DNA of 64,000 nucleotides from Pacificibacter marinus (lineage in GTDB: Bacteria; Pseudomonadota; Alphaproteobacteria; Rhodobacterales; Rhodobacteraceae), in the NCBI RefSeq assembly GCF_018860665.1, contig NZ_JAHKPK010000018.1, forward strand, positions 124,001 through 188,000, given 5' to 3'. Positions 40,267 to 60,877 of this stretch are shown here, piece by piece. The position numbers and the translations under genes are program-made. Position 1 is the first letter of the stretch. Every line of letters begins with the position of its first letter. The notes under the pieces were generated by a model. That model did not search any database, was not told the origin of the DNA, and saw only the letters and a list, made by a program, of their open reading frames with translations.

Positions 40267-40299
40267 CCTAAAACCCAACCTCCAACCCCGCTCAGTAAT

Positions 40300-40350
40300 G
40301 TTTCACAGAAATGTCACGGAGTTCGCAAGCTGCTGTTACAGACTTCATCA
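40300..40350 (+). promoter_or_regulatory. Candidate PHO box array upstream of the Ugp-like operon
   Basis: GTTTCAC (40300) and ATGTCAC (40311) form an 11-bp-phased direct repeat resembling the PhoB half-site CTGTCAT/C with 4-base spacers. CTGTTAC (40333) and TTCATCA (40344) continue on the same 11-bp phase. Half-sites match only partly, so this is a candidate for PhoB control. Confidence 0.4.
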
Positions 40351-40356
40351 AATCTA

Positions 40357-40370
40357 TGCACACGTGTGCA
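40357..40370. promoter_or_regulatory. LacI-type operator palindrome TGCACACGTGTGCA
   Basis: A perfect 14-bp palindrome with the central CG typical of LacI-family operators, 42 bases upstream of the binding-protein gene. The probable ligand is the LacI-family protein encoded later in the same operon (46411-47442). Confidence 0.6.
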
Positions 40371-40411
40371 AACTGTTGTCGCGCACCTCATTTTTTGGAG
40401 ATACCGACCTG

Positions 40412-41755
40412 ATGAAACAGATAACTTGCGCTCTCGCGCTGCTCGCCTCCACAGCCGCTATGCCGGTTCTGGCAGAAGACATAACCATTACAGTTTGGGC
40501 CGGTGGGTCCAACGACAGCGATCATTACCGTATTGATAACATCATGATCGCAGCCGATCTTTTATCGCGCGAAGCTGCCATCCGTGGTGAAGAACTTAAC
40601 ATCACCGTAGAAGGCAAGCGCGATTTTGATGGCTGGGACGGTTTCAAGCAAGCCGTAACCCTTGGCGCTGAAGCGGGCAATGCGCCCAATATCGTCGTCA
40701 CATCGCATCTGGATATCGCACCTTGGGCCAGTGCCGGTTACATCGTGCCGATTGAAGATTACGTCGATCTGGATTCATGGCCGCTGAACAACGTTTATGC
40801 AAACCTGATGGAAATAGCGACCTTTGACGGTACGCAATGGGGCGTCCCTCAAGATGCTGAAAGCCGCCCGTTTTTCTTCTGGAAAGACACTATGGCAAAG
40901 CTTGGTTATAGCGACGCTGACATGAATGACATGGCCGCCCGCGTTCAAGCTGGTGACTACACATTGCGTGATATGCTTGCAGATGCCAAAAAGGCCGTGG
41001 ATATGGGTCTTGTGGACGAGGGATACGGCTTCTACCCACGCGTATCTAACGGTCCTGATTATGCTCAATTTTACCAATCTTTCGGCGGCGAGCTGATGGA
41101 TCCTGAAACGGGCAAACTGGTACTTGACCGCACAGCCATGACCGAGATGTATCAATTCTTTGTGGATGCTGTTGAGGCCGGCGTGACGCGTAAGAACCAT
41201 ATCGGCACCGATTGGGACCAATGGTATTCTGAAGTGGCCAGCGGTAAGGCCGCGTTCTGGCACGGTGGGACATGGCACTATGGCCGCTACACTGGCAAAG
41301 AAGGCAACGACGACTTTTTTGGCACCATTGGTTTCACTTTGATCCCAGCGGGCAATGAAGCGGGCCGTGCCAACACGATCACACATCCGCTGGTTTATCT
41401 CGTGACGGATCAAGAAGAAGATCGTGCCGAAGAGATTGCCGCGCAATTGGTCTCCATCGCGTCCGAGCCGCGCTTGAATACCCTTCATGCGATTGCATCC
41501 TCGCACTTGGCTATCGGCAAAGCAGAGTCTGATCTGGACCTTTATGCGGGCGATCGTTGGGCCTCCGAAGCAACGGACGTCCTTTTGCCGCACGCAAATG
41601 CGCAGCCGAACCACCCAAGCTACGGGGCGTTTTCGGAAGCGATGTTCAAAGGCTTAGAGGCCGCTTGGGCAGGCGTTCAAACCCCTGAAGAGGCCGTGGC
41701 CGAAATCGAAGCACAGATGAGCGCCACACTCGGTGACGAGTTGATCATCCGCTAA
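40412..41755 (+). CDS. Family 1 extracellular solute-binding protein (Ugp/sugar type)
   Basis: A 447-residue periplasmic binding protein with a clear signal peptide (about residues 1-20, cleaved after MPVLA). The mature start EDITITVWAGG is typical of cluster-B sugar/glycerol-phosphate binding proteins. The ligand is not readable from sequence. The following GDPD and phosphatase genes suggest a phosphodiester or phosphorylated polyol. The ATG at 40412 follows TTGGAG and gives a clean signal peptide; an upstream frame to 40298 is rejected. A strong hairpin follows the stop. Confidence 0.85.
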   Translation: MKQITCALALLASTAAMPVLAEDITITVWAGGSNDSDHYRIDNIMIAADLLSREAAIRGEELNITVEGKRDFDGWDGFKQAVTLGAEAGNAPNIVVTSHLDIAPWASAGYIVPIEDYVDLDSWPLNNVYANLMEIATFDGTQWGVPQDAESRPFFFWKDTMAKLGYSDADMNDMAARVQAGDYTLRDMLADAKKAVDMGLVDEGYGFYPRVSNGPDYAQFYQSFGGELMDPETGKLVLDRTAMTEMYQFFVDAVEAGVTRKNHIGTDWDQWYSEVASGKAAFWHGGTWHYGRYTGKEGNDDFFGTIGFTLIPAGNEAGRANTITHPLVYLVTDQEEDRAEEIAAQLVSIASEPRLNTLHAIASSHLAIGKAESDLDLYAGDRWASEATDVLLPHANAQPNHPSYGAFSEAMFKGLEAAWAGVQTPEEAVAEIEAQMSATLGDELIIR

Positions 41756-41774
41756 ATCACTTAATCCAACCTTT

Positions 41775-41803
41775 GCGGCGGTGCGCCCAATGCGTGCCGC
41801 CGC
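41775..41803 (+). terminator. Intercistronic hairpin between binding protein and permease
   Basis: GCGGCGG pairs with CCGCCGC, extended by four further pairs including G-U, and there is no T run after it. It is more likely an mRNA-stabilising or partial attenuation element than a full terminator. Confidence 0.6.
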
Positions 41804-41827
41804 TCCTATTTCATGACGAGGTGCAAC

Positions 41828-43129
41828 ATGAACCGACAGACCCTATTGGGCTTGAGCTTTATCAGCCCCGCACTGCTGGCTGTGGTGATGTTCTTTCTGC
41901 TTCCGGTCGTTTTGACCGTTGTTTTTGCCTTCACCAATATGAGCACCTCAACTGGTATTCTTGGCGGCGAATACCAAATCAGTGAAAGCGATCTGCGTCG
42001 CCTCCCCGCAGCGGGAGTGAGTGACGAAGTCGCCGAAATGTTGACGGGCGCGGGCTATGCCGTGCGTCCCGAAACACTGGCACTTTTTGCGGCTGACTTT
42101 GGCAAAGATCGCGCCGATGAATTTGACACGCTGCATGGCGGAGCCACTTTCAATGATCGCCGCGCGATGGAGCGGGCGCTTAAGGACCTACGCGGTGATC
42201 CGATCCGTGTCGTACGCGAGCGCAAGGCGGCGGCAGAGCTTTTTCGCGTTTCCATCCTTGGCCAGCGCTATCCTACCGAAGCCGAATTTCAAACCGCGAT
42301 CCGCGAGTTAGGCATCCCCGAGGCCGACCATGCGGCATTGACCAAGGCCGCCTATACAGGCTGGACCTTTACCACCCAGAATTTCGAGCTTTTGTGGGAG
42401 CTTCCCGCCACCTGGCGCTATGCACTGAATTCAACAATCTACGTGGTTTTGACCTTGGCATTCAACGTGGGGTTTGGGCTTTTTCTGGCGTTCTCTACCT
42501 TTTACCTGCCAACACGCACGGCACAGACCTTCCGCGCCATCTGGTTTTTGCCACGCATTCTGCCGCCCGTCCTCTATGTGGTGATGTGGCAATGGCTGAC
42601 CTGGGATCAAGGGTTCATATCTGCCATATTGCGCCCCTTTGGCATCGAGCCGATCAACTGGATGCGCCACACGGCCACTCACGCATGGACCTTTATCGTG
42701 CTGATCAACGGCTGCGTGGGCGCGTCTTTGGGCATGATTTTGTTTTCATCATCCCTGCGCGCGATCCCCGAAACACATCTATTTGCGGCGCAAGTGGATG
42801 GGGCCAACCGCTGGCAACAAGTGCGCTTTGTGCTGCTGCCGCAAATGCGCTGGCCGATCCTATTTATCACGTCCTACCAAACGCTCTCACTGTTGACTTC
42901 GTTTGAATACATTCTGCTCGCCACTGACGGCGGCCCAGGACGTCAGACCGAAGTTTGGGCGCTTGCGGCCTATCACACGGCGCTGTCGAACTACGGTGGC
43001 AACCTCGAATACGGGCTTGGCGCGGCCTATGCACTTGCGCTGGTCATCATCGGCATTCTGCTTTCCGCGCTTTATTTACGGTTCTTCAATTTCCGCGATC
43101 TTGTCGCCAAACCGAGGATCGAACAATGA
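41828..43129 (+). CDS. ABC transporter permease, MalF/UgpA type, with large extracytoplasmic insert
   Basis: A 433-residue inner-membrane permease. The first membrane segment (about residues 8-33) is followed by a ~150-residue hydrophilic insert (about 40-185, rich in helices and repeats of EAD and RRAMERALKDL). Five further segments and the EAA loop (FAAQVDGANRWQQVRFVLLPQM) come after. MalF carries a comparable periplasmic P2 loop, whereas UgpA does not. GAGG precedes the ATG. It couples by ATGA to the second permease. Confidence 0.88.
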   Translation: MNRQTLLGLSFISPALLAVVMFFLLPVVLTVVFAFTNMSTSTGILGGEYQISESDLRRLPAAGVSDEVAEMLTGAGYAVRPETLALFAADFGKDRADEFDTLHGGATFNDRRAMERALKDLRGDPIRVVRERKAAAELFRVSILGQRYPTEAEFQTAIRELGIPEADHAALTKAAYTGWTFTTQNFELLWELPATWRYALNSTIYVVLTLAFNVGFGLFLAFSTFYLPTRTAQTFRAIWFLPRILPPVLYVVMWQWLTWDQGFISAILRPFGIEPINWMRHTATHAWTFIVLINGCVGASLGMILFSSSLRAIPETHLFAAQVDGANRWQQVRFVLLPQMRWPILFITSYQTLSLLTSFEYILLATDGGPGRQTEVWALAAYHTALSNYGGNLEYGLGAAYALALVIIGILLSALYLRFFNFRDLVAKPRIEQ

Positions 43130-43956
43130 ACACATCACTCAAAGGCAATTGGCTACTTGTCCTCGCCATGTCGCTTATGTCCGCCCCATTGGTCATCATG
43201 TATGGTTTCCAATTGATCGATAGCATCTCGCGCCCTGCCCCCGGTGGGATCATTCCACAGGAATGGGAACTGACCAATTGGCGATTTTTGTGGGAGCCTA
43301 TAGACAGCGCGCGTCCCTCGATCTGGCGCGTGACCTTTAACACCTTTGTCTTCGCCAGCAGCACGGCGCTTTTGGTCTGCGCCTTCTCCATCACGGCGGC
43401 CTATGCGCTCTCGCGGCTAAACTTTCCAGCGCGGCGGTTCTTCCTCGCGGGGCTGATTATGTTGCACGCATTCCCGACGATCACCTTAATCATCGCGATC
43501 TTCATCGTGCTGCAATTCCTTGGCCTCTACGACAGCTTAATGGGGGTGATCCTTGTCAAAGCCGCATTGGAGTTGCCCTTTGGGATTTGGATTATGAAGG
43601 GGTTTTACGACTCTGTACCTTGGGAAATAGAGATGGCAGGCGTCCAAGATGGTGCCTCGCGGTTCCGTGTCTGGCGGGAACTGATCCTGCCGCAGGTCAA
43701 GCCGGGCCTTTTAGCGCTGTTGATCTTTTCCTTTCTTGCGGGTTGGTCAGAATTCATTTTGCCACTCGTGCTGGCCCCTGGCGCCGATGCGCAGGTGTTG
43801 GCCACTTACATGAACGCGGTCATCGCGGACGACACACGCCCAGACTACGGGCTCTTCAAGGCGATCGGCATGTTCTACGCATTGCCCGTAATCGCTATTT
43901 ACCTGCTGTTCCAAAAACGGCTCATGAACATCTATGGCGGAGGCACGAAAGGCTAA
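43126..43956 (+). CDS. ABC transporter permease, MalG/UgpE type
   Basis: A 276-residue inner-membrane permease with six membrane segments and the EAA loop EIEMAGVQDGASRFRVWRELI, the contact point with the ATPase. It starts within the stop of the first permease (ATGA) and its own stop overlaps the ATPase start (TAATG). Second half of the heterodimeric channel. Confidence 0.92.
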   Translation: MNTSLKGNWLLVLAMSLMSAPLVIMYGFQLIDSISRPAPGGIIPQEWELTNWRFLWEPIDSARPSIWRVTFNTFVFASSTALLVCAFSITAAYALSRLNFPARRFFLAGLIMLHAFPTITLIIAIFIVLQFLGLYDSLMGVILVKAALELPFGIWIMKGFYDSVPWEIEMAGVQDGASRFRVWRELILPQVKPGLLALLIFSFLAGWSEFILPLVLAPGADAQVLATYMNAVIADDTRPDYGLFKAIGMFYALPVIAIYLLFQKRLMNIYGGGTKG

Positions 43957-45002
43957 TGCAGATCAAATTGCAAAATTTTACCAAGCGCTTTGGTGACACA
44001 ACTGTCATCGAGGATATGTCGCTCTCGATCGCCTCGGGCGAAATGATCGCGCTGCTTGGCCCCTCGGGGTGCGGCAAGTCGACAACGCTTTTCGCCATCA
44101 GTGGCATTCACCGCATCGATGGTGGATCGCTACACTTTGGCGACCGCGACGTGACCACGCTGCCACCGCAAGACCGCCCCGTGGGTGTCGTGTTCCAAAA
44201 CTATGCGCTTTACCCGCATATGAGCGTGGCCGAAAACATCGGCTTTCCGCTGCGGGTGCAAAAACTGAAGACGGCAGAGATCAAACGCCGCGTGGGGGAA
44301 ATGGCTGAGCTGGTCCAAATCGGAAACCTTCTAAAACGCAGACCGCAGCAGCTTTCCGGCGGACAACAGCAACGTGTGGCACTGGCCCGCGCCTTGGTGC
44401 GCAAGCCCGACGTGTTGCTTCTTGACGAACCGCTCGCCAATCTAGATGCCAAGTTGCGCCTTGAAATGCGGTCGGAAATCCGCCGCCTTCAGCGCGAAAC
44501 GGGCATCACCGCGATCCTCGTCACCCATGACCAGATCGAAGCCATGTCCATGTGTGACCGCATCGCCTTGATGAGGGACGGTCGGATTGAGCAAATCAGC
44601 ACGCCATCCGAGATGTATGAACGCCCCGCATCGCATTACGTTGCAGGTTTTCTTGGCAATCCGCCGATCAGCTTTGTGCAGGCCGAAGCCAATGGGAAAC
44701 TCATACTCGGCGCAGGAAACGCCTTGCCAATGCCGCAGGGCATTTCCGCTCGCGGCGCGATCACCATTGGCATCCGCCCTGAACATTTCGGGCCGCAGCA
44801 TCAAGGGCCTTCTGTGTCTGGTCGCGTGAGCTTTATCGAACCGCAGGGGCGCGAGGATTTGATCGACGTGACCCTGCCCGATACCCAACGTCTGCGCGCC
44901 ATCGTGCCAGCTGGTCATAACTTCGCACTTGGTCAGGATGTCAGTTGGCAAGTGGATTTATCGCGCACGCATTTGTTTAACGCCGATGGGGCACGTCTAT
45001 GA
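43956..45002 (+). CDS. ABC transporter ATPase, MalK/UgpC type
   Basis: A 348-residue ATPase with Walker A GPSGCGKST, the signature LSGGQQQRVALARAL and Walker B LLLDEPLANLDAKL. VTHDQIEAM and a C-terminal TOBE regulatory domain (about residues 240-340, with IGIRPEHFG) follow. This is the classic CUT1 (sugar, glycerol phosphate) arrangement. Overlaps both neighbours, so the operon is tightly coupled. Confidence 0.94.
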   Translation: MQIKLQNFTKRFGDTTVIEDMSLSIASGEMIALLGPSGCGKSTTLFAISGIHRIDGGSLHFGDRDVTTLPPQDRPVGVVFQNYALYPHMSVAENIGFPLRVQKLKTAEIKRRVGEMAELVQIGNLLKRRPQQLSGGQQQRVALARALVRKPDVLLLDEPLANLDAKLRLEMRSEIRRLQRETGITAILVTHDQIEAMSMCDRIALMRDGRIEQISTPSEMYERPASHYVAGFLGNPPISFVQAEANGKLILGAGNALPMPQGISARGAITIGIRPEHFGPQHQGPSVSGRVSFIEPQGREDLIDVTLPDTQRLRAIVPAGHNFALGQDVSWQVDLSRTHLFNADGARL

Positions 45003-46414
45003 CCGCTATTGATTGGACCCGCCCCGCGCGCCCTTATTCTATCGCCCATCGAGGTGCGGCGGCCTATGCGCCCGACAACACGATAGAGGCCTTTCGCATC
45101 GCCAGCCGCATTGGCGCGGATATGTGGGAGGTTGACATCCGCGTGACCTCTGATGGTGAAATCATCGCCTTCCACGACAAAATACTCTCGGACGGGCGCA
45201 AGATTATCGACACGCCCTTTGCCGAGATCCTTGCCCATACCACCGCAGAACACCGCCCCTGCCCGCTGCTGCGCGATGTGGTGGCCGAGGCTGCAAAACT
45301 TGGTGCGGGCATCTATGCCGACATCAAAGACACGGATGCCACCTTGCCGACCCTTCACATGCTGCAAGAGCACGGTATCACCCGCGCGATCCTTGGGGCG
45401 TTTAATCCGAAAGCCGCACAGATTCTGGCCGAGGCAGACAGCCCCTACCCGCGTTCCGTGCTTGTCCCGCTTGGGGCCGAACCATTTTCCTATGCCGATG
45501 GCGCAGATGTGATCCATTTGTGTTGGGAGCGCATGGAACGCCCGCAGGACACCCTAACGGATGAACTGTTCGAGCGCGCCTTTGCCAATGGTCAAACGAT
45601 TGCGATCTGGCATGAAGAAGACCCCCTGCGCATGGCTGCGATCCGCAACCGTCCTGTCATCGGCATTTGCTCTGACCTACCCGAGTTGGTCAATCAACCC
45701 GGGCACGGCTTGCCGTTTGAAACAGCCTGCCATCGCGGTGCCAACAAGATCGCGCCTGAGAATACTTTGCCCGCATTTGAATGTGCTCTCGCCGCTGGAT
45801 TTGAATATGTAGAATGCGACCTACAACTGACCGCTGACGGGGAAATTGTACTCCACCATGACCAGACACTGGAGCGGACGACGAATGGACGGGGGCCAAT
45901 CACCGCGTTGACCCTGTCTGAGTTGCGCGCGCTGGATGCCGGGCATTGGTTCAGCCCGCATTTCGCAGGGACGCAGATACCGACACTGACCGAGCTTCTC
46001 GATCTCCTACACCGCTACGACGGGCGAGCTTACTTGGAACTCAAATCCGCCCCTCCCGCACCCGCGTGGCAGAAGGTATGTGATGCAGGACTGCAAGATC
46101 GCGTGTTTTTCTGGTCCTTCAATCACGCCGCCCTCAAAGAGTTACGCGTCCTCGCGCCAAAGGCGAACATCATGGCGCGGCGACAGGATTACGCCACGCT
46201 CCAAGACACACTCGACGATCTCGCACCGCAAATCGTTGAGTTTACGTTGCCAGAAGGCACAGAGGATTTCGCCGCAGTGCGAGACGCGGGGGCCTGCGTT
46301 ATGATCGCCGCGATGGCTGGTGATCGCGCAACCTTGGCGCAGGTCATAGCCGCAGCCCCTGACATCGCCAATGTTGATCATCCCTTTGATCTTGCCCGAC
46401 AGGTGCGCGGATGA
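44999..46414 (+). CDS. Tandem double glycerophosphodiester phosphodiesterase
   Basis: A 471-residue protein consisting of two GDPD domains (about residues 8-230 and 236-470). UgpQ-like enzymes cleave glycerophosphodiesters to an alcohol and glycerol 3-phosphate. Domain 1 has His17/Arg18 (AHRGAAAYAPDNT), Glu44/Asp46 and His59, but the later metal-binding E-x-K strand reads ADIK. Domain 2 has His245/Arg246 (HRGANKIAPENT), Glu272/Asp274, His287 and a normal YLELK. No signal peptide is seen, so it acts on imported substrate. The double form is unusual. Confidence 0.9.
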   Translation: MTAIDWTRPARPYSIAHRGAAAYAPDNTIEAFRIASRIGADMWEVDIRVTSDGEIIAFHDKILSDGRKIIDTPFAEILAHTTAEHRPCPLLRDVVAEAAKLGAGIYADIKDTDATLPTLHMLQEHGITRAILGAFNPKAAQILAEADSPYPRSVLVPLGAEPFSYADGADVIHLCWERMERPQDTLTDELFERAFANGQTIAIWHEEDPLRMAAIRNRPVIGICSDLPELVNQPGHGLPFETACHRGANKIAPENTLPAFECALAAGFEYVECDLQLTADGEIVLHHDQTLERTTNGRGPITALTLSELRALDAGHWFSPHFAGTQIPTLTELLDLLHRYDGRAYLELKSAPPAPAWQKVCDAGLQDRVFFWSFNHAALKELRVLAPKANIMARRQDYATLQDTLDDLAPQIVEFTLPEGTEDFAAVRDAGACVMIAAMAGDRATLAQVIAAAPDIANVDHPFDLARQVRG

Positions 46415-47442
46415 ACGATCACACGGTGAATGAACATCGCCGCCCCACATCGCATGACGTGGCACGATTGGCAGGTGTCTCACGCTCTGCCGTGTCACGT
46501 TGCTTCACGCCCGGAGCCAGCATTGCAGACGAGACCCGTGCAAAAATTATGACAGCCGCGGCAGAACTGGGCTATCGCACCAATGCGTTAGCGCGCAACC
46601 TAAAGTCACAACAATCACAACTGGTCGCGATCCTCGCCTCACGTTTGGATACACCGTTTCGTGCGCGGCAGGTGAAATATCTCTCTCGGGCGCTGATTGC
46701 GCAGGGGTTTCGCCCCCTGCTACTGACCGCCGAGCGCAGTGATGATCTGGAGCCGTTGCTGTCGTCCATGCTTGATTATAATCTTGCGGGCATGATCGTC
46801 ACCTCGGACACGCCACCCACTGCCGTGATTGAGGAATGCAAACGATTGCGGGTGCCATTGGTGCTGATCAACCGAAACCCAGAACCCAACGGAGGGGATC
46901 GGATCGAGCTTGATACCACGGCTGCCGCCGAGGTTGTTTTTGATATATTGTACCAAGCAGGTGCGCGCCGCTTTGCCGTGCTGCGCCCCGAAGATCGAAC
47001 CTATACTGTGATGGGGCGCGTTCATGCCTTTGACGCGCTTGTGCGTGCCAAAGGTATGACCTGTCATCAGTTGCCCTGTGATAGCCAATCCTATGGCGCA
47101 GGGCGCGACGCAATGCGCCAATACGCAGATATTTTGCAAACCTGCGACGGTCTTTTTGCCACGTCAGATTTACTGGCCTGCGGGGCCTTAGATGGGCTGC
47201 GCCTTGATCTCAATATGCAGGTGCCCAAAGATATTCACGTTGTGGGATTTGATGATATAGAACAGGCAAGCTGGGCGTCTTATGATCTCAGCACCGTACG
47301 ACAAGACCCAGAAAAGCAAGCCGGCACAGCCGTCGAGGTCATGCTATATCGCTTGCAAATGCCCGACGCGCCGACACTTTTGAAACATCCGCCGCTCAAA
47401 CCGATCCTGCGCGGCACCACTGGAAAGCCTGATTTCACATGA
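46411..47442 (+). CDS. LacI-family regulator of the first phosphodiester operon
   Basis: A 343-residue repressor-type protein. The N-terminal HTH is SHDVARLAGVSRSAVSRCFTPGASIADETR, and a sugar-binding-type effector domain follows with ALARNLKSQQSQLVAIL and HVVGFDDIEQASWASYDLSTV. It is encoded inside the operon it probably controls, between the GDPD and phosphatase genes, with ATGA overlaps on both sides. A palindrome at 40357-40370 is the likely operator. Confidence 0.9.
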   Translation: MNDHTVNEHRRPTSHDVARLAGVSRSAVSRCFTPGASIADETRAKIMTAAAELGYRTNALARNLKSQQSQLVAILASRLDTPFRARQVKYLSRALIAQGFRPLLLTAERSDDLEPLLSSMLDYNLAGMIVTSDTPPTAVIEECKRLRVPLVLINRNPEPNGGDRIELDTTAAAEVVFDILYQAGARRFAVLRPEDRTYTVMGRVHAFDALVRAKGMTCHQLPCDSQSYGAGRDAMRQYADILQTCDGLFATSDLLACGALDGLRLDLNMQVPKDIHVVGFDDIEQASWASYDLSTVRQDPEKQAGTAVEVMLYRLQMPDAPTLLKHPPLKPILRGTTGKPDFT

Positions 47443-48230
47443 CCCTGCACGACCGACTGTCCTTTGCCGTATCTCTCGCAAAAGAGGCAGGCTCCCTCGC
47501 TCTCACGATGCGCGCATCGCAAGAGGGGCTAACAATCGACGCCAAAGGCCCGCAAGATTTTGTGACCGCCGCGGATCTTGCCGTGGAAACCTTGATCCGT
47601 GATCGTATAGCCAAGGCCTTCCCCAACGACGCCATCATCGGCGAGGAAGAAGGGCGTCACGGGGATACATCCTCTGGTGAGGTGTGGATCATTGATCCCA
47701 TCGATGGGACGACAAATTTCATGCGCGGATTGCCCGATTGGGCCGTGTCCATTGCCTGTGCAACTGCGGGGGAGATCGTCCTCGGGGTGATATTTGCGCC
47801 CGACCACGATCTGATGCTCGAAGGTCTGTTGGCGGACACACCAATCGCACGCAAAAACGGAGCGGCCGTGCAGCCCGCAACCAGTCGCACGGCCACAGAG
47901 GCGTTGATCGCCGTCGGGTGGTCCCCACGGACGGCCTTCACTGATCATGCAGCTTTCCTTGCTCAGATCGTCGCACAAGGTGGTGAATATCGCCGTTCAG
48001 GAGCCGCCACAATCGGCTTAATCGGCGTCGCGTGCGGGTGGGTTGATGCCTATGTCGAGCGCGAATTGAACCTATGGGATGCCGCTGCGGGGATCGCAAT
48101 TATTCGTGCGGCAGGCGGGACCGTGGAGGCGCCTGACTTTACGCCTAATCTCAAATCGCCCGCCCCTTTTCTGGCCTTAGCGCGCGCAGATCATGAGCTG
48201 GCGCCGATCTTGCGTTTATCAAACGTTTAA
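47439..48230 (+). CDS. Inositol monophosphatase family protein
   Basis: A 263-residue Mg-dependent phosphatase of the IMPase/SuhB/CysQ family. It has DFVTAADLAVE, GEEEG, the metal-binding WIIDPIDGTTNFMRG and the late ELNLWDAAAGIAIIRAAGG. In this operon it may remove phosphate from inositol or another polyol phosphate released by the GDPD. HisN-like or CysQ-like specificity cannot be excluded. Confidence 0.88.
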   Translation: MTLHDRLSFAVSLAKEAGSLALTMRASQEGLTIDAKGPQDFVTAADLAVETLIRDRIAKAFPNDAIIGEEEGRHGDTSSGEVWIIDPIDGTTNFMRGLPDWAVSIACATAGEIVLGVIFAPDHDLMLEGLLADTPIARKNGAAVQPATSRTATEALIAVGWSPRTAFTDHAAFLAQIVAQGGEYRRSGAATIGLIGVACGWVDAYVERELNLWDAAAGIAIIRAAGGTVEAPDFTPNLKSPAPFLALARADHELAPILRLSNV

Positions 48231-48461
48231 CGACAGAAAACGCTGTGCCAAATTGTCGGTGCCAAATTTCAGGACGTTGCATTGCAACATTGTAATCGTC
48301 TGCCAAAAGGCACTTTGGCCAATATCTGATCGGTGTTAGAGAAAACTGATTTCCAAGCCCGTGATTTGAGTGACCATTTCACCCGAATTTACAGCGCTAT
48401 ATATCGACCTTGGGGTGGTCTCTTTTCATTTTTTTATGCAAAGGGGCCACTGGTTTTTCTG

Positions 48462-48479
48462 CCGTCATAATCCTGTAAC
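48462..48479 (+). promoter_or_regulatory. Candidate PHO box CCGTCAT-AATC-CTGTAAC
   Basis: Two 7-base half-sites with a 4-base AT-rich spacer match the PhoB pattern CTGTCAT-N4-CTGTCAT at 6/7 and 5/7 positions. It lies 47 bases upstream of the LacI-family start. It suggests induction by phosphate starvation. Confidence 0.5.
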
Positions 48480-48497
48480 GAATCTCAAATATGTAAA

Positions 48498-48511
48498 TGG
48501 AAACGTTTCCA
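48498..48511. promoter_or_regulatory. LacI-type operator palindrome TGGAAACGTTTCCA
   Basis: A perfect 14-bp palindrome with central CG, immediately upstream of a LacI-family gene (start 48526). The presumed binding site of that regulator. Confidence 0.7.
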
Positions 48512-48525
48512 ATGAGACATATGAC

Positions 48526-49623
48526 ATGCGACCCGCAGCCCCCGCTACAATCAAAGACGTTGCTCGGCTTGCGGGCTGTGGCATAGCGACCGCCAGTCGG
48601 GTGTTGAATAAATCCGGCCCAGCAAGCACGGAAATGCGAGAACGGGTCGAACGTGCTGCACGTGATTTAGGGTTTAATTTCAACGCGGCAGGACGCGCCC
48701 TTCAGAGCCGGAAATCAATGACCATCGGCTGCCTGGTGCCCTCTTTGGCAAATCCAGTATTTGCCGAAGCCGTGCAAGGGGTGCAATCCGAACTTTTGGG
48801 ATCAGGCTACCAACTGTTGATTTCATGTTCGAACTACGACGATGACGCAGACAACGCAGCAATCACCACATTGCTGGAAAACAATGTGGACGGGATCATA
48901 GCCACCATGGTCGCCCCAAACCGCAGCACGGCATTGATGCAAACAAAACAGCGCGATATCCCTGTGTCGCTCATGTTTCATGATCCGATAGACGGCATGG
49001 TGACGGCCTACGTTGATAATTTTGTCGCCGCAGCAGAGGTCGCACGCCGTTTTGCAGCCTTTGGCCACACACGCGTCGGCTTTCTGGCGCTGCGTTTTTC
49101 GACCTCGGATCGGTCGCGCAATCGATATGCAGGATTTTACAAACAATGTAGAACAAGCGGATTGGCCCAACCGAGCTTGATCGAAATTAGCGAAGAGGAT
49201 GCGCACCATCCCGAACGATTGGCCGCCATTCTTGCCAGTTACCCTGATGTCACAGCGTTGTTTGCATCGAATGATTTCCTTGCCATCGCTGTCCAAAAAG
49301 CAACGCGGCATTTGGGGTGGCAGGTGCCTCAGGATCTTTCTGTTGTTGGGTTTGACGGGATCGAAGTCGGACGGTTGCTGGAAACGCCCTTAAGCACCAT
49401 TGAAACATCCCCCGAAGCGATGGGGCGGCAGGCCGCTCAGTCGCTTCTAAACGCATTGCAGGGGCTTGGATTGAAACAACGCCCGCCCCTGCCCTTTTCT
49501 TTTCGGGAGGGCGAAACCCTTGCGGCTCCCAACCCGAAAAGGACTGACGACGATCGGGTCGCCGCCCAACCGTCGTCTGTTCACCCCGCTCAAGATCAAA
49601 ATCAATCAAGGACGAACCCATGA
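48526..49623 (+). CDS. LacI-family regulator of the second phosphodiester operon
   Basis: A 365-residue regulator. The HTH TIKDVARLAGCGIATASRVLN is near the N terminus. The effector domain contains GRALQSRKSMTIGCLVPSLANPVFAEAVQGV and VVGFDGIEVGRLLETPLSTIE. It starts at 48526, since the upstream frame back to 48370 overlaps the operator and PHO box. Its stop overlaps the next start (ATGA), so the regulator heads the operon. Confidence 0.92.
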   Translation: MRPAAPATIKDVARLAGCGIATASRVLNKSGPASTEMRERVERAARDLGFNFNAAGRALQSRKSMTIGCLVPSLANPVFAEAVQGVQSELLGSGYQLLISCSNYDDDADNAAITTLLENNVDGIIATMVAPNRSTALMQTKQRDIPVSLMFHDPIDGMVTAYVDNFVAAAEVARRFAAFGHTRVGFLALRFSTSDRSRNRYAGFYKQCRTSGLAQPSLIEISEEDAHHPERLAAILASYPDVTALFASNDFLAIAVQKATRHLGWQVPQDLSVVGFDGIEVGRLLETPLSTIETSPEAMGRQAAQSLLNALQGLGLKQRPPLPFSFREGETLAAPNPKRTDDDRVAAQPSSVHPAQDQNQSRTNP

Positions 49624-50624
49624 AACATACACTTTTTGCTGCCTTGGCTGCAACCGCACTTACCGCAGTTGCCACGCCTCTATTTGCGGATGATGCTATC
49701 TGTTACAACTGCCCACCCCAATGGGCAGACTGGGCTTCTATGTTAGAGGCGATTGACGAAAAACTTGATATCCAGATGCCACATGACAACAAAAACTCTG
49801 GTCAAACCATCAGCCAGTTGATTGCCGAACGTGCAAGCCCTGTGGCCGATGTTGCCTACTACGGTGTCACAACGGGCATCAAAGCGGGCCAAGACGGGCT
49901 TGTTGAACCTTATAAACCAACCGGTTTTGACGACATCCCTGACGGATTAAAAGACGCTGACGGCAATTGGTTTGCTATTCACTATGGCACAATCGGCTTT
50001 TTCGTAAACGTCGACGCATTGGCCGGCGCGCCTGTGCCGCAATGTTTCGCGGACCTGACCAAACCTGAATACCGCGGCATGGTTGGCTATCTTGATCCGT
50101 CATCCGCCTTTGTCGGCTACACGGGTGCGGTTGCTGTGAACCAAGCCTTTGGTGGTGATTTGAACAACTTCGATCCAGCCATCGAATATTTCAACGATCT
50201 GGCAAAAAATGATCCTATCGTACCAAAACAAACGTCTTTTGCGCGTGTCGTATCTGGCGAAATTCCAATCTTGGTTGATTACGATTTCAACGCCTATCGC
50301 GGCAAATATGAAGAAGACGGCAATTTCGAATTTGTACTGCCCTGCGAAGGGTCTTTGCGCGTGCCTTATGTCATGAGCCTTGTAAAAGACGCACCGAACT
50401 CGGATGCAGGCAAACGCGTTTTGGATTTCATCTTGTCTGATGAAGGCCAAGCGATCTGGACCAATGCTTACTTGCAACCAGCGCGCCCTGTGGAATTGCC
50501 TGCCGATGTGGCTGCCAAATTCCTGCCTGCCAGCGAATATGACCGCGCCGCATCTGTTGACTACAGCGACATGGCCGCCGTGCAAGCTGCCTTTGGCGAA
50601 CGGTATTTGTCAGACGTAAAATAA
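49620..50624 (+). CDS. Periplasmic binding protein, Fe3+/AEP/spermidine-type ABC importer
   Basis: A 334-residue binding protein with a signal peptide (about 1-23, ending FADD) and two mature cysteines in ICYNCPPQW. Its domain order and the VAYYGVTTGIKAG and LVDYDFNAYRGKYEE regions fit the group including iron, 2-aminoethylphosphonate and polyamine binding proteins. The presence of a metallophosphoesterase in the operon suggests an organophosphate ligand. A strong hairpin lies between it and the permease gene. Confidence 0.82.
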   Translation: MKHTLFAALAATALTAVATPLFADDAICYNCPPQWADWASMLEAIDEKLDIQMPHDNKNSGQTISQLIAERASPVADVAYYGVTTGIKAGQDGLVEPYKPTGFDDIPDGLKDADGNWFAIHYGTIGFFVNVDALAGAPVPQCFADLTKPEYRGMVGYLDPSSAFVGYTGAVAVNQAFGGDLNNFDPAIEYFNDLAKNDPIVPKQTSFARVVSGEIPILVDYDFNAYRGKYEEDGNFEFVLPCEGSLRVPYVMSLVKDAPNSDAGKRVLDFILSDEGQAIWTNAYLQPARPVELPADVAAKFLPASEYDRAASVDYSDMAAVQAAFGERYLSDVK

Positions 50625-50640
50625 CGCCATTTTCACACAA

Positions 50641-50664
50641 GGAGGGTGCGTCACCGCGCCCTCC
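50641..50664 (+). terminator. Intercistronic hairpin after the binding-protein gene
   Basis: A 10-bp stem GGAGGGTGCG/CGCGCCCTCC (one G-U) with loop TCAC and no following T run. It probably stabilises the upstream mRNA, giving more binding protein than permease. Confidence 0.65.
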
Positions 50665-50689
50665 ACTTGCGTCAACCAAAGGCATTCAA

Positions 50690-51493
50690 ATGACCTCTCG
50701 AACCTTCGTCCAGCTGTGCTTGCTGCCGCTGGCAGTCTTCACACTGACCTTTTTGGCCTTACCCTTGGCCCGCTTGATCCTTGCCTCGGGCGAAGGAGAA
50801 TTTGGCTGGGGCATTTACCTGAAAATTCTGCAAACCCCGCGCTATTATACAACCTTGCTGCAAACGGTTTTGATCTCAATCGCGGTCACAATCACTGCAT
50901 TGGGCATTTCAACAACCGCCGGATTGTTCCTTGTGCGGAACCGATTTGCGGGGCGCGGCGTGTTATTGTCCATTCTGACCCTGCCCCTTGCCTTTCCCGG
51001 CGTGGTGGTCGGGTTTATGATCATACTCTTGGGGGGACGTCAGGGCTTGGTCAACCAAATCCTGCCCGGTCATTGGGTGTTTGCCTATTCTGCCTTTGGG
51101 TTATTTCTTGGGTATCTTTATTTCTCGATCCCGCGCGTTTTACTGACCGTGATGGCCGCCGCAGAAAAGATCGATCCCGCACTCGAAGAAGCCGCACTCA
51201 CTTTAGGTGCCCCACCGCACCGTGTTGTGCTGGATGTGATCCTGCCCGCTTTGGCGCCTGCGATGATCGCGGCAGGGGCGATTGCCTTTGCCACGGCCAT
51301 GGGGGCTTTTGGGACTGCATTCACACTGGCCACCAATATCGATGTCTTGCCGATGGTCATTTACACTGAATTCACCTTATCGGCCAATATCGCCATGGCG
51401 GCGGCATTGTCGGTTGTTTTAGGCGTGATCACTTGGGCCTTACTTTTAATTGCGCGCAGTTTTTCCGGCACAACTGTCGCGGCAGGAGGTTGA
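50690..51493 (+). CDS. ABC transporter permease 1 (Sfu/PhnU-like)
   Basis: A 267-residue permease with about six membrane segments and the EAA loop LEEAALTLGAPPHRVVLDVILPAL. It belongs to the iron/phosphonate/polyamine (PotB-like) group, not the CUT1 sugar group of the first operon. The second permease follows after 1 base with GGAGG. Confidence 0.9.
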   Translation: MTSRTFVQLCLLPLAVFTLTFLALPLARLILASGEGEFGWGIYLKILQTPRYYTTLLQTVLISIAVTITALGISTTAGLFLVRNRFAGRGVLLSILTLPLAFPGVVVGFMIILLGGRQGLVNQILPGHWVFAYSAFGLFLGYLYFSIPRVLLTVMAAAEKIDPALEEAALTLGAPPHRVVLDVILPALAPAMIAAGAIAFATAMGAFGTAFTLATNIDVLPMVIYTEFTLSANIAMAAALSVVLGVITWALLLIARSFSGTTVAAGG

Positions 51494-51494
51494 G

Positions 51495-52286
51495 ATGTTC
51501 AAATCACCCGCAAAGCTATTCCAGCTCGTCATCACATTACTGGCTTGCGCATTTCTTTTAATCCCCACGTTGCAATCCGCGCTGGCGGGCGTCACCGTGA
51601 ACTACTTTAGAGGGGTTTCTTCAGGTCTCACGTTCAAATGGATCATCGAGGTTTGGGCGCTCTATTCGGGCAGCATCTTTTTATCAATCTGGCTGGCGCT
51701 GGCCTGTCTTATGTGCACCCTGATCATCGGCGTGCCTGCGGCCTATGCGCTTGCACGCAATCCGGGCCGCCTGTCACGCATGCTCGAAGAATTCATCTCG
51801 CTTCCACTCGCCATTCCCGGCCTTGCACTGGCATTGGCGCTGTTGCAACTGTATGGTGGTTGGCGTGAATTTCGTATGAGCTGGACATTCATTCTGGTCG
51901 GTCACGTTCTGTATACGCTGCCATTTATGGTCCGCTCAGTCATGTCCGTTTTGGCCGCGATAGATTTGAAAACCCTCGAAGAAGGCGCTGCCTCTTTGGG
52001 CGCGCCGCCCCATCGCAGGTTCTTGGACATCGTGGTTCCAAATGCGCTGCCCGGTATTCTGGCTGGGGCGCTGACCGTGGTGACCCTATCCATCGGTGAA
52101 TTCAATCTGACTTGGATGCTGCACACACCGTTTTTGAAAACCCTGCCTGTCGGGCTGGCCGATAGCTATGCCTCTATGCGGTTGGAAATCGCATCCGCTT
52201 ATACCCTGATCTTCTTTGTGATGATCGTTCCCCTTTTGCTGGCCATGCAATGGGCCACCGCCCGCGCCCAAAGGATCATGTCATGA
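51495..52286 (+). CDS. ABC transporter permease 2 (PotC/PhnV-like)
   Basis: A 263-residue partner permease with about six membrane segments and the EAA loop LEEGAASLGAPPHRRFLDIVVPNAL. GGAGG ends 5 bases before the ATG at 51495. Its stop overlaps the ATPase start (ATGA). Confidence 0.9.
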   Translation: MFKSPAKLFQLVITLLACAFLLIPTLQSALAGVTVNYFRGVSSGLTFKWIIEVWALYSGSIFLSIWLALACLMCTLIIGVPAAYALARNPGRLSRMLEEFISLPLAIPGLALALALLQLYGGWREFRMSWTFILVGHVLYTLPFMVRSVMSVLAAIDLKTLEEGAASLGAPPHRRFLDIVVPNALPGILAGALTVVTLSIGEFNLTWMLHTPFLKTLPVGLADSYASMRLEIASAYTLIFFVMIVPLLLAMQWATARAQRIMS

Positions 52287-53317
52287 CACTTTCGCTAACC
52301 AATACCGCAAAAACCTATGCCGATGGCACGCGTGCTTTGAAGCCCACAAAACTGGATATTGCTCAAGGCGAGATCGTCTCGCTGCTCGGTCCGTCGGGTT
52401 GCGGCAAATCCACCTTGCTGCGCATAATCGCAGGGCTAGAAACGCCTGATGAGGGCGCAAAGCTTTTGTTTGATGGCGAAGACTTTACCCGATTTCCCGT
52501 TGAAAAACGCAAAGTCGGCATGGTGTTCCAATCTTACGCGCTGTTCCCGAATATGTCGGTGCGCGGCAACATAGGCTACGGCCTAAAAATGCAAAAACTA
52601 CCCAAAACCGAAATCAACAGACGTGTGGATGAGGTCATCACGCTGTGCCAACTTGAACCCTATGCGGCCCGCCCCATCAATGCGCTTTCAGGCGGCCAGC
52701 GCCAAAGGGTCGCCTTGGCCCGCGCCTTTGCACCGCGTCCGCGACTGTTGTTGTTGGATGAACCTCTGTCGGCATTGGATGCCGCCTTGCGCGGGCAATT
52801 GTGTGATGAATTGGCACAGCTTTTGCGCAGCTTTGGTATAACGGCGATATTTGTGACCCATGATCAAGACGAAGCCATGGCCATCGCAGATCGCGTTGCT
52901 GTGATGTCTCATGGTGAAATCGCTCAAATCGGCACGCCTGAAGTGCTCTACCGCGCGCCCCAGTCTGAATTCGTCGCACGCTTCATAGGGGCCGCCATGC
53001 CGCTGGGGCGTCACATCGATGACAACACGTTGCACTTTGAAACGGGGTCTCTCAATCTAGCGGGCTCACAAGCAGGCAAAAAAGCGTTCATACGTGCCGA
53101 AGATGTCCGTCTGGACGACACTGGCCCGCTACGAGCCAAGGTCATATCGGTGACATTCTTAGGCACGCATTACCGCATCGCTCTTGCAGGTTTGGCCCCA
53201 GATCCAGTCTTTGCCTTGCACAGCGCACTCAGCGCCCCCAAAGTTGGCGACACAGTGGGCGTTGCCATCAATCCTGCTGCAATATTGATGTTGCCCTCTG
53301 ATAAGAAAGCCGCCTAA
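52283..53317 (+). CDS. ABC transporter ATPase (PotA/PhnT-like)
   Basis: A 344-residue ATPase with Walker A GPSGCGKST, the signature LSGGQRQRVALARAF and Walker B LLLLDEPLSALDAAL. A C-terminal TOBE domain follows (about residues 255-340, with KKAFIRAEDVRL). It couples by TAATG to the phosphoesterase gene. Confidence 0.93.
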   Translation: MTLSLTNTAKTYADGTRALKPTKLDIAQGEIVSLLGPSGCGKSTLLRIIAGLETPDEGAKLLFDGEDFTRFPVEKRKVGMVFQSYALFPNMSVRGNIGYGLKMQKLPKTEINRRVDEVITLCQLEPYAARPINALSGGQRQRVALARAFAPRPRLLLLDEPLSALDAALRGQLCDELAQLLRSFGITAIFVTHDQDEAMAIADRVAVMSHGEIAQIGTPEVLYRAPQSEFVARFIGAAMPLGRHIDDNTLHFETGSLNLAGSQAGKKAFIRAEDVRLDDTGPLRAKVISVTFLGTHYRIALAGLAPDPVFALHSALSAPKVGDTVGVAINPAAILMLPSDKKAA

Positions 53318-54126
53318 TGCCTGCATTTATTCAAATCACCGACACTCATATCGTCGAAAAAGGCCGGTTGGTCTGTGATGCGTCTGATACAAATGCGGCG
53401 CTTCGCAAGGCTATACTATCGATCAATAACCGTTTGCCTGCGCTGGGACAGATAGACTGCGCGATTGTCACGGGCGATCTGACAGACAATGGCACCCTCG
53501 AAGAGTATGCGCATTTTTCCGAAATCATGGCTGACCTTGACTTGCCGTGGATCGCCATTCCGGGCAATCATGATCATCGCGAGACGATGCGCACAGCTTT
53601 TGCGCAACAAGACTGGATGCCATCCTCTGGCCCGATCCAATGGTTGCGTGATTTTGGTCCCTTCGCGGTCTTGGGGCTTGATACCTTGCTGGAGGGCGCG
53701 CATCACGGAGAACTGTCGGCCCCTGCATTCGCTTTCCTTGACGAACAGCTGATCAAACTTGCAGGAAAGCCCTTGATTGTCGCCACACATCATCCGTGGA
53801 TGCATTGTGGAATTACAGAAATGGACGCCGATAATCTGCGCAATGGCGCAAAACTGATGGAACGGCTGGAACACTATTCCGGCCCAACCCGCATGATATC
53901 GGGACATGTCCATCGTGCGGTTACAGGTCAAATTGGCAGTGTTTTGTGTCAGATTTCGCCTAGCACGTGTCACTCCGTGCATCGTGACCAACGTAAAGAG
54001 GCCATCCATTCACTCGCGCTGGAACCAGGAGCTGTCACATTGTTCACATGGGCTCGCGGAGCTCAATCAGGATTGATCTCGGACATTTTATCACTTGAAA
54101 AGATTGACCACCCAGTCCCGTTTTGA
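53317..54126 (+). CDS. GpdQ/CpdA-like metallophosphoesterase
   Basis: A 269-residue class III phosphodiesterase with a complete dinuclear metal site: Asp9-x-His11 (QITDTHI), Asp54 (TGDLTDNG), Asn84-His85 (GNHDH), THHPWMH and GHVH. GpdQ cleaves glycerophosphodiesters and CpdA cleaves cAMP. Within a LacI-regulated importer operon a phosphodiester scavenging role is favoured. No signal peptide, so it works inside the cell. Last gene of its operon. Confidence 0.88.
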   Translation: MPAFIQITDTHIVEKGRLVCDASDTNAALRKAILSINNRLPALGQIDCAIVTGDLTDNGTLEEYAHFSEIMADLDLPWIAIPGNHDHRETMRTAFAQQDWMPSSGPIQWLRDFGPFAVLGLDTLLEGAHHGELSAPAFAFLDEQLIKLAGKPLIVATHHPWMHCGITEMDADNLRNGAKLMERLEHYSGPTRMISGHVHRAVTGQIGSVLCQISPSTCHSVHRDQRKEAIHSLALEPGAVTLFTWARGAQSGLISDILSLEKIDHPVPF

Positions 54127-55974: not shown

Positions 55975-56873
55975 CGTAACCTCGGATTTAAATAGTCGCG
56001 GACCCAGTCAGCAACAAGATTGAAAGCAACCACCATCACAAGCAGCATCGTGCCGGGAAAAATAACCACCCACCAAATACCGGAGAACAAATACTGACTG
56101 CCGATTTGAATAAGCGCACCCAGAGATGGTTCGGTAAGCGGCGTGCCTAATCCCAGAAACGACAACGTCGCCTCGGTCACGATGGCCACGGCAATCTGCA
56201 GCATCGCCAACACCAGCACCGGTCCCAAAATATTAGGCGTGATGTGACGCAAAATGATTGTCCGCGTTGGTAGGCCAATAGCCTCGCAAGATGTCACATA
56301 ATCCTGCCGCCGCTGGACCATAACAGACGCCCGCACAATACGCGCAAACTGCACCCAGCCGGCCAGCCCAATGGCCAAAACCATGATCGGAACCGCCGCA
56401 GCCGCAAAGACCTCTGCGGGCAATGTGGTTTTAAGGATGCCGTTGAACAGCAATGCAATCAAAATGGGTGGAAAGGCAAATTGAACTTCGGCAACGCGCA
56501 TCAATATCGCGTCTGTCCAGCCCCCAAAATAGCCAGCCAGCAACCCGACAGCCATGCCAATCAGCACGGATAGAAGCACAGCCCCCAAGCCGACGATCAA
56601 GGAAATACGGCCACCATATAACATCGCGGACAACACATCACGTCCTTGCAAATCAGTGCCCAACAAGAACCGCGCGTCGGCTCCATCTTGCCAAACGGGC
56701 GGCAAGTTATTGTCCATGATCGATATTGTGGCAGGATCAAACGGCGTATGCGGTGCAAATATCGGCGCGAATGCGCATCCGATGACAATCATTCCAATGA
56801 TAAGCGAAGATATGACGGTGACGGGTGAATTCAGCAATTCGTACCAAAAATCAGAGCGTATTTTTTCAAACAT
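55971..56873 (-). CDS. Peptide-type ABC permease DppC-like
   Basis: A 300-residue permease with an N-terminal membrane segment, a periplasmic loop with FLLGTDLQGRDVLS (typical of DppC/OppC) and five further segments. The EAA-like loop reads YVTSCEAIGLPTRTIILRHI. It lies 1 base after the DppB-like gene. Confidence 0.92.
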   Translation of the reverse strand: MFEKIRSDFWYELLNSPVTVISSLIIGMIVIGCAFAPIFAPHTPFDPATISIMDNNLPPVWQDGADARFLLGTDLQGRDVLSAMLYGGRISLIVGLGAVLLSVLIGMAVGLLAGYFGGWTDAILMRVAEVQFAFPPILIALLFNGILKTTLPAEVFAAAAVPIMVLAIGLAGWVQFARIVRASVMVQRRQDYVTSCEAIGLPTRTIILRHITPNILGPVLVLAMLQIAVAIVTEATLSFLGLGTPLTEPSLGALIQIGSQYLFSGIWWVVIFPGTMLLVMVVAFNLVADWVRDYLNPRLR

Positions 56874-56874
56874 A

Positions 56875-57843: not shown

Positions 57844-57867
57844 ATATGATTTCCGAAACTAGAGACT

Positions 57868-57897
57868 GTGCCACCCACTCACAAAAGCGGGCGGCAC
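57868..57897 (-). terminator. Intercistronic hairpin after the peptide-binding-protein gene
   Basis: On the reverse strand GTGCCGCCC pairs with GGGTGGCAC (one G-U) around a 12-base loop with no T run. This is the third such hairpin following a binding-protein gene in the window. Confidence 0.6.
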
Positions 57898-57904
57898 CTA
57901 GGGG

Positions 57905-59494: not shown

Positions 59495-59599
59495 AACACT
59501 CTCCTATGTTGGGGTCTTTGATGACAACGGCTTTGCGTTTAGATTTGTCTTATGCAAATTTGCGCTTAAAACCGGCGTCAGGCTGTCACTTGAGACAGA

Positions 59600-60748: not shown

Positions 60749-60844
60749 AAGGTTGCAGTCTCGCTTTGTTTGTAATGACACTTAATCGTTGACCGACTGG
60801 CCTTTCTACGCAATAGAAAATGTTGAGTGATAGTATTCACTTTT

Positions 60845-60862
60845 GATATACCAATTGATATC
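60845..60862. promoter_or_regulatory. Candidate LysR operator GATAT-N8-ATATC
   Basis: An imperfect dyad GATATACCAATTGATATC lies in the divergent region 16 bases before the LysR start and resembles the T-N11-A-type sites of LysR regulators. Suggestive only. Confidence 0.35.
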
Positions 60863-60877
60863 GCAAAGGATGCTCGC

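Follow-up and report, generated by a model that had tools for sequence, protein, structure and literature searches.

What do two adjacent import operons of Pacificibacter marinus bring into the cell, and do they act as one locus? Both lie on the + strand of the 64-kb stretch of contig NZ_JAHKPK010000018.1 analysed here (the window), operon 1 at 40412-48230 and operon 2 at 48526-54126. The initial annotation, made from the sequence alone, described two neighbouring forward operons, each with a LacI-family regulator, a full ATP-binding cassette (ABC) importer and one or more phosphodiesterases, and the open reading frames (ORFs), their order, strand and families agree. On balance, we favour a model of two side-by-side import-and-cleave modules under PhoB and LacI control, in which operon 1 would serve glycerophosphoinositol and operon 2 another glycerophosphodiester.

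Operon 1 encodes, in order, a solute-binding protein (SBP), permease A, permease B, an ATPase, a two-domain GDPD, LacI and an IMPase (families SBP_bac_1, BPD_transp_1 twice, ABC_tran, GDPD twice, LacI and Inositol_P). The proposed pairing of a double GDPD with an IMPase-family gene is borne out by two PF03009 matches and a PF00459 match of 175.6 bits. LacI, the sixth gene of operon 1, is the first of operon 2, where SBP, two permeases, ATPase and metallophosphoesterase follow (LacI, SBP_bac_6, two permeases, ATPase and Metallophos). Genes within both operons overlap by a few bases or are separated by at most ~70 bp; because of this tight spacing, and because the same gene order recurs in other genomes, the arrangement is far beyond chance. 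By a motif check, the GDPD, the IMPase and the metallophosphoesterase all have their catalytic or metal-binding residues. The features of operon 1 are given below, with SBP1 starting at the ATG at 40412, which by eye opens a signal-peptide-like stretch; the ORF program's start at 40298 is too early.

40300..40317, + strand: weak PHO-box-like site GTTTCACAGAAATGTCAC (score 8.9, P = 0.023 versus shuffles), 39 bp before the operator
40357..40370, no strand: operon 1 LacI operator, palindrome TGCACACGTGTGCA, conserved upstream of related loci with LacI-1
40412..41755, + strand: SBP1, a CUT1 solute-binding protein (SBP_bac_1, structure model, Foldseek)
41813..43129, + strand: permease A, MalF-like, with an insertion of ~100 residues by alignment
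43126..43956, + strand: permease B, MalG-like
~43956..45002, + strand: ATPase of UgpC/MalK type (PRK11650; start by inspection)
44999..46414, + strand: two-domain GDPD (N-domain of the Rhizobium cassette type, C-domain UgpQ-like)
46411..47442, + strand: LacI-1 regulator (PF00356, PF13377)
47439..48230, + strand: IMPase-family phosphatase (GEE, DPIDGT and WD motifs)

The operon 1 importer had been called CUT1/Ugp-like. The CUT1 half of that label stands, as profiles, structure model and Foldseek agree on an SBP_bac_1 protein, two MalFG-type permeases and a MalK-type ATPase; the Ugp half does not. SBP1 has no match to UgpB (PRK10974) at E ≤ 0.001, permease A matches MalF (NCBIfam, 56 bits) and not UgpA, permease B scores higher for MalG (92.5 bits) than for UgpE (60.4 bits), and only the ATPase is closest to UgpC (388 of 432 bits). 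Together with a separate Ugp-like set with its own GDPD on another contig (C23, region L070; UgpB 120 bits and UgpA 144 bits, both below cut-off), this rules out a Ugp identity for operon 1. The UgpBAEC-UgpQ system of E. coli, which imports glycerophosphodiesters and glycerol-3-phosphate, does share with it a CUT1 ABC importer, an intracellular GDPD and a UgpC-type ATPase. It is also under PhoB control, which we propose for operon 1 as well. Operon 1 differs in having its own LacI repressor, an IMPase, a second GDPD domain, MalF/MalG-type permeases without a UgpB partner, and the permease insertion. This insertion, at residues ~60-160 between transmembrane segments TM1 and TM2 of permease A, is common to the three same-cassette relatives compared (433 residues each) and absent, by alignment, from the Thermus, Martelella and Terrarubrum permeases and from the genome's own UgpA; it may serve SBP1 as a docking loop. 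Contig C64 holds another importer, of spermidine/iron type, together with its own GDPD (L068 9785-14553); because it adds to the others, the genome has at least four phosphodiesterase-linked importers. In total it holds five GDPD genes carrying six GDPD domains.

The best named relatives of SBP1 are from Rhodobacterales (Pacificibacter marinus D2R04, 94%; Celeribacter halophilus, 92%). Its structure model (pLDDT 91.9) placed SmoF with sulfoquinovosyl glycerol (SQGro) at the top of the Foldseek matches, closely followed by MalE3, GacH and UpG dinucleotide-binding proteins. SQGro is another deacylated lipid head group, and the modelled fold fits a glycerophosphoinositol ligand without proving it.

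A profile search of named genomes gave 211 relatives of operon 1, the best 80 of which resolved into 78 loci spanning Rhodobacterales, Roseibium, Rhizobiales, Thalassospira, Oceanospirillaceae, SAR324-type bacteria and one planctomycete metagenome-assembled genome (MAG). GDPD is present in 74 of these 78 (66 double, 8 single) and IMPase in 38. Across 67 aligned double GDPDs, the HR, ExD and HD catalytic residues are intact in both domains. The nearest relative of the N-domain is the GDPD that stands single in the Rhizobium cassette (37-39% over 228-230 residues), and that of the C-domain is a Martelella enzyme of UgpQ type (39% over 232 residues). From these alignments, the "double GDPD" appears to be a union of two GDPDs of different origin, and its two active sites may divide the labour. 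An origin by tandem duplication is unlikely, since the two domains have different nearest relatives. Three Rhizobium cassettes (L074, L081 and L085) are accompanied on the opposite strand by another GDPD of a different kind, either adjacent or no more than ~2 kb away, which clusters with the GDPD of the Thermus cassette described below. The IMPase-family protein, above cut-off for PF00459, reaches 124.6 of 332 bits for the NCBIfam IMPase model and 143.7 of 275 bits for HisN.

We read operon 1 as probably an inositol operon because of this IMPase, iol neighbours in three genomes and co-occurrence with iolD; glycerophosphoinositol is the simplest compound requiring GDPD, IMPase and iol genes. 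On Thermus thermophilus pTHTHE1601, genes annotated as iolD, iolC and iolG, together with one for a DeoR-type regulator, precede an operon-1-like SBP-permease-permease-ATPase-GDPD set in the same orientation; the SBP of this set is 35% identical to SBP1 (Martelella, 33%; Terrarubrum, 29%). In Thalassobius sp. I31.1 (L116), iolC, D, E and B, all above NCBIfam cut-offs, share the strand of the cassette and end ~340 bp upstream of it, and in the Rhodobacterales MAG UBA3077 (L152), iolG and an iolC kinase domain, above cut-off, lie downstream. These are the iol neighbours in 2 of the 78 loci, searched with Thermus iolG as the iolG query, where 0.17-0.33 would be expected at a rough, assumed iol frequency (P = 0.013-0.045); weak iolG-type matches (25-26%) in L124 and L164 were not counted.

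Co-occurrence was scored in a survey of 295 genomes of the family, with the double GDPD (E ≤ 1e-60) as marker of operon 1 and the phosphodiesterase (E ≤ 1e-40) as marker of operon 2. Ten of the 11 operon 1 genomes, our own included, have iolD, compared with 154 of 295 overall (hypergeometric P = 0.008; 0.014 without our genome; 0.024 also without G209, which has a GDPD fragment only). As a control, iolD was found in 4 of 8 operon 2 genomes. The sole further operon 1 carrier in a class-wide sample, G333, has iolD (36 of 289 overall), and our genome has both iolD and iolG above cut-off.

Several observations weigh against the inositol reading. The iol link comes down to three loci and a P value of 0.008, and operon 1 genome G018 is without iolD. 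No annotated iol gene lies within 8-10 kb of the Marinovum, Antarctobacter, four Rhizobium plasmid, Martelella or Terrarubrum cassettes, and at the cut-off used no IMPase was found in 40 of the 78 loci, partly owing to contig ends. The profile matches of SBP1 in the PDB are general maltose-type proteins, which also precludes reading a SmoF-type ligand from it directly. The cassette of L138 adjoins glpD, and in the marine single-cell alphaproteobacterial genomes L129 and L131-L133 it stands beside phosphonate genes in an organophosphorus island (~1-20 kb), accompanied by an SpdA-like phosphoesterase (170 of 400 bits in L133, the one locus tested) and without LacI, IMPase or iol matches. In L133 the island comprises PhnA and PhnW above cut-off, an HD oxygenase that reaches 201 of 214.6 bits, a gene recognized by eye as an aldehyde dehydrogenase, a permease of PiT/CysP type and the SpdA-like gene, directly divergent from SBP1.

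Because of the phosphonate and glpD neighbours, another glycerophosphodiester retains some probability for operon 1. Uptake could be broad, or directed at glycerophosphoglycerol or -ethanolamine mainly for phosphate, the IMPase being a general sugar-phosphate phosphatase and the iol neighbours a coincidence. The loci in which IMPase went undetected, the UgpQ-like C-domain of the GDPD and the plasmid-borne cassettes, most of those viewed having no annotated iol neighbour, would suit this explanation as well. Against it speak the iol genes that adjoin the cassette in two Rhodobacterales-type genomes and in Thermus, the presence of iolD in nearly all carriers, and the separate Ugp-like system with GDPD that the genome already has; we regard it as a serious but clearly less probable alternative.

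Less probable again is a substrate that is some other phosphodiester of inositol or of a sugar, for example di-myo-inositol phosphate or a compound like agrocinopine, which the GDPD would cleave and the IMPase would then dephosphorylate. Di-inositol phosphate is a heat-related solute and Thermus is a thermophile; the 78 loci, however, appear by their names to be mostly from marine-type mesophiles, in which this solute is not expected, and GDPD domains usually act on glycerol phosphodiesters. An agrocinopine-like substrate is brought to mind by the many Rhizobium plasmids with the cassette and by the agrocinopine acc operon, which is the nearest working analogue of operon 1, its nearest family relatives being maltose-type importers and Ugp. 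The acc importer is of the peptide type and so differs from that of operon 1, which has no sign of an opine substrate; the two are set apart here by description. The acc operon of Agrobacterium Ti plasmids resembles operon 1 in combining sugar phosphodiester import, cleavage and dephosphorylation with a local repressor, AccR, whose effector is a cleavage product, and AccF and AccG are the proposed phosphodiesterase and phosphatase for agrocinopine (PMC4526662). Taken together, these data suggest that operon 1 most likely imports glycerophosphoinositol.

The features of operon 2 are as follows.

48462..48479, + strand: PHO-box-like site CCGTCATAATCCTGTAAC (score 15.9, P = 0.002 versus 1000 shuffles of the same stretch)
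48498..48511, no strand: operon 2 LacI operator, palindrome TGGAAACGTTTCCA, conserved in closer operon 2 loci
~48526..49623, + strand: LacI-2 regulator (family profile; start by inspection)
49620..50624, + strand: SBP2, an SBP_bac_6 solute-binding protein (PF13343, 136.9 bits; PDB relatives 5t1p and 4r72)
50690..51493, + strand: permease (family match)
51495..52286, + strand: permease (family match)
52283..53317, + strand: importer ATPase (family match)
53317..54126, + strand: GpdQ-like metallophosphoesterase (PF00149; D-x-H, GD, GNHD, HHP and GHxH motifs)

The metallophosphoesterase resembles GpdQ, its closest solved structure (PDB, 5.7e-21), and has all class III metal-site motifs. With 99.6 of 225 bits for CpdA and 103.4 of 400 bits for SpdA, it reaches neither NCBIfam cut-off; of the earlier label "GpdQ/CpdA-like", we keep GpdQ. 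The importer had been termed Sfu/AEP-like. Its SBP_bac_6 family is confirmed, and aminoethylphosphonate (AEP) is an unlikely substrate: SBP2 scores 95.7 of 310 and 91.5 of 395.3 bits for PhnS, far below both cut-offs, and 20 operon 2 regions gave no phnW or phnA match (E ≤ 1e-9).

To place operon 2 among its relatives, we viewed 10 of the 26 other family genomes with a phosphodiesterase match, of which 7 showed the full gene order. Class-wide, SBP2 relatives (E ≤ 1e-55) occur in 21 of 289 genomes; among 18 of the 20 other carriers viewed, 17 have SBP2 at 55% identity or more (L235-L251), with the phosphodiesterase present in 14 and LacI in 12. The range covers Alphaproteobacteria plus Cupriavidus, and a distant version sits on an archaeal (Halopenitus) plasmid (SBP 40%, adjoining gene annotated as metallophosphoesterase). 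In the distant cassettes the phosphodiesterase falls to 30-36% identity while SBP2 stays at 55-74%; because the enzyme is nevertheless kept in those 14 of 17, the substrate is probably constant. The four relatives without LacI that were tested (L247, L248, L250 and L251) encode a DeoR regulator that scores best with GlpR, though below its cut-off (214-236 of 331 bits). In E. coli, GlpR responds to glycerol-3-phosphate, and these GlpR-type regulators, like the pst-phoUB neighbour of another relative, point to a glycerophosphodiester as the substrate of operon 2.

AEP, iron or a cyclic nucleotide could still be imagined in its place, as SBP2 does score with PhnS (91.5-95.7 bits) and with iron-binding relatives, and the enzyme with SpdA and CpdA. 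We consider this unlikely in view of the distance of the PhnS scores from their cut-offs, the unmatched phnW and phnA, and the GlpR-type regulators; for iron import, moreover, a phosphodiesterase would serve no purpose. PhnSTUV and other SBP_bac_6 importers (for AEP, iron or, in AfuA, hexose phosphates) share the SBP family and importer architecture with operon 2, which differs from PhnSTUV in having a phosphodiesterase in place of phosphonate genes and an SBP below the NCBIfam cut-offs. AfuA-type proteins bind organophosphates, and 4r72 is among the PDB relatives of SBP2. The operon 2 enzyme is set apart from GpdQ by its coupling to a dedicated importer and LacI repressor. Judging from these comparisons, operon 2 most likely imports another glycerophosphodiester. 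Among marine bacteria, glycerol-1-phosphate importers are described with GpxB (PhnT family) and UgpB (CUT1 family) (PMC12718374); going by the families stated there, GpxB and SBP2 would belong to different families.

Conservation indicates that each operon has its own dedicated LacI operator. With up to 2 mismatches allowed, TGCACACGTGTGCA stands upstream of the operon 1 SBP at 60 of the 62 loci that have LacI-1, but at 0 of the 9 untruncated loci that lack it (Fisher P = 7e-10, relatedness not corrected); the count excludes two loci with too short an upstream stretch and five LacI-less loci taken as truncated (three with the operator, two without). Our genome has a single TGCACACGTGTGCA site at 0-1 mismatch, and the reversed pattern, as a control, gave one site there and none in nine other genomes. 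With only this site, control of the genome's own iol genes by LacI-1 is not supported, a further point against the inositol reading. TGGAAACGTTTCCA was found in 12 of 12 closer operon 2 loci (11 exact, 1 with one mismatch). Because it is rare in 20 more distant regions (exact in 1, one mismatch in 1), we assign it to the closer group. Genome G201 has a second TGCACACGTGTGCA copy (one mismatch) at L181:5791, within L181:992-5804, just before a stretch that weakly matches a LacI-type ligand domain (Pfam, 28.2 bits) and a gene for a DUF5054 protein; 3.8 kb away on the same strand lies a member of the iolE family (314.6 of 290 bits, above cut-off). This copy may serve a different LacI and was not counted as evidence.

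A phosphorus link comes from candidate PHO boxes. A weight matrix built from stretches upstream of pst (site in 29 of 30, our own pst included; consensus CTGTCATAAAACTGTTAC) places the operon 2 site of the window 18 bp before the operator. Among 12 operon 2 loci, 9 score above the 90th percentile of shuffles and 9 have their best site 18-22 bp before the operator, 8 of the latter exceeding that percentile; L063 and L064 lack a good site, and in L076, next to pst-phoUB, it lies at 44 bp. In Roseovarius sp. Pro17, pstCAB-phoU-phoB lies immediately upstream of operon 2. For operon 1, 53, 43 and 15 of 77 upstream stretches (related, not independent) exceed the 90th, 95th and 99th shuffle percentiles. 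The best site falls at 22-23 bp in 21 and at 39-41 bp in 7 of the 64 loci with an operator. PhoB control of operon 1 is less well served by the weakness of its own GTTTCACAGAAATGTCAC in the window and by the fact that these two distances, the commonest, account for the best site in only 28 of the 64 loci. Overall, both operons are probably under PhoB and local LacI control; from these sites we infer PhoB binding at the PHO boxes and repression by LacI. What survives of the initial annotation's functional reading is a pair of LacI-regulated, phosphodiesterase-coupled importers, probably for two different phosphodiesters, with a link to phosphorus seen in the PHO-box-like sites, the pst-phoU-phoB neighbour of operon 2 and the phosphonate neighbours of operon 1 cassettes.

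The same annotation had joined the operons into one dedicated phosphodiester scavenging locus, and this did not survive a comparative search for the two side by side. In the family survey, operon 1 occurs in 11 genomes and operon 2 in 27, and ours is the only genome with both. A same-genus genome, G260, has neither marker at the survey thresholds. The operon 1 gene order was seen in 9 of the 10 other carriers (G293 is cut by a contig end; G201 and G211 are without an IMPase match). No relative of the operon 2 SBP, permease or phosphodiesterase (E ≤ 1e-15) was found in flanks of up to 10 kb of the 78 operon 1 loci, nor were the operon 1 SBP and GDPD found in the operon 2 cassette regions examined. 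The two sets do adjoin each other in the same orientation, and their promoters are built alike, with a PHO-box-like site plus a LacI operator, as expected of a co-adapted locus acquired and kept together. Their operators are entirely different, though, and with one shared genome among 295 and 0 of 78 flanks, we hold that scenario to be highly improbable. By distribution, the two appear to be neighbouring, independently inherited gene sets, and one joint locus is not supported.

When the ORFs flanking the 78 operon 1 loci were clustered, generic families emerged, along with a few groups of small size. A lincosamide-nucleotidyltransferase-like gene recurs by the cassette in six loci (L098, L101, L104, L105, L124, ~0.7 kb before SBP1, and L151, downstream); that of L098, the one tested, scores 95.7 of 325 bits for Lnu(D). 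Two Boseongicola MAGs (L143 and L145) have the SBP1 gene twice in tandem.

From the gene content, catalytic motifs, conserved cassettes and operators that we observe, we infer substrates, cleavage direction, PhoB binding and repression as follows. Phosphate starvation would switch on each operon through PhoB at its PHO box, while a LacI repressor at the dedicated operator would hold it down until its substrate appears. The MalEFGK-type ABC importer of operon 1 would take up glycerophosphoinositol, the deacylated head group of phosphatidylinositol. The two-domain GDPD could convert it to glycerol-3-phosphate and inositol, to glycerol and inositol phosphate, or both; the IMPase would release inositol and phosphate, and the inositol would enter the iol pathway, of which the genome has iolD and iolG. 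The SBP_bac_6-type importer of operon 2 may take up glycerophospho-choline, -ethanolamine or -glycerol, which the GpdQ-like enzyme would split into glycerol-3-phosphate and an alcohol. More speculatively, operon 1 might be a dedicated glycerophosphoinositol route widespread in marine and plant-associated bacteria, its double GDPD cutting both sides of the phosphate (glycerol-3-phosphate plus inositol; glycerol plus inositol phosphate, cleared by the IMPase) so that none of phosphorus, glycerol and inositol is lost; phosphate starvation and a LacI that senses the inositol product would gate the route. We offer this fuller version only tentatively.

Judged by titles and the beginnings of abstracts, no published description of either cassette was found in the open-access literature, and none of an uptake route for an inositol-type head group in the literature searched. 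Both operons are variants of phosphodiesterase-coupled ABC import for which we found no earlier description. Among lipids, phosphatidylinositol is found mainly in eukaryotes, algae and plants included. If the proposal is true, a bacterial importer for glycerophosphoinositol would tie lipid turnover in algae and roots to the supply of phosphorus and inositol to bacteria. Two small, testable regulons are defined by the conserved operators and PHO-box-like sites, which also provide a motif by which carriers could be recognized in metagenomes.

Beyond the two operons, thiamine-type genes (thiM, thiE, thiD and tenA) lie to the left of operon 1; the thiD anchor for this site was not found in the same-genus genome G260 at E ≤ 1e-40. 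On the opposite strand, window positions 54298-61795 hold an Opp-type importer with a fused two-domain ATPase and an ArgE-type deacetylase (above cut-off), then a LysR regulator; from its gene families, this looks like an uptake unit for N-acyl amino acids or peptides.

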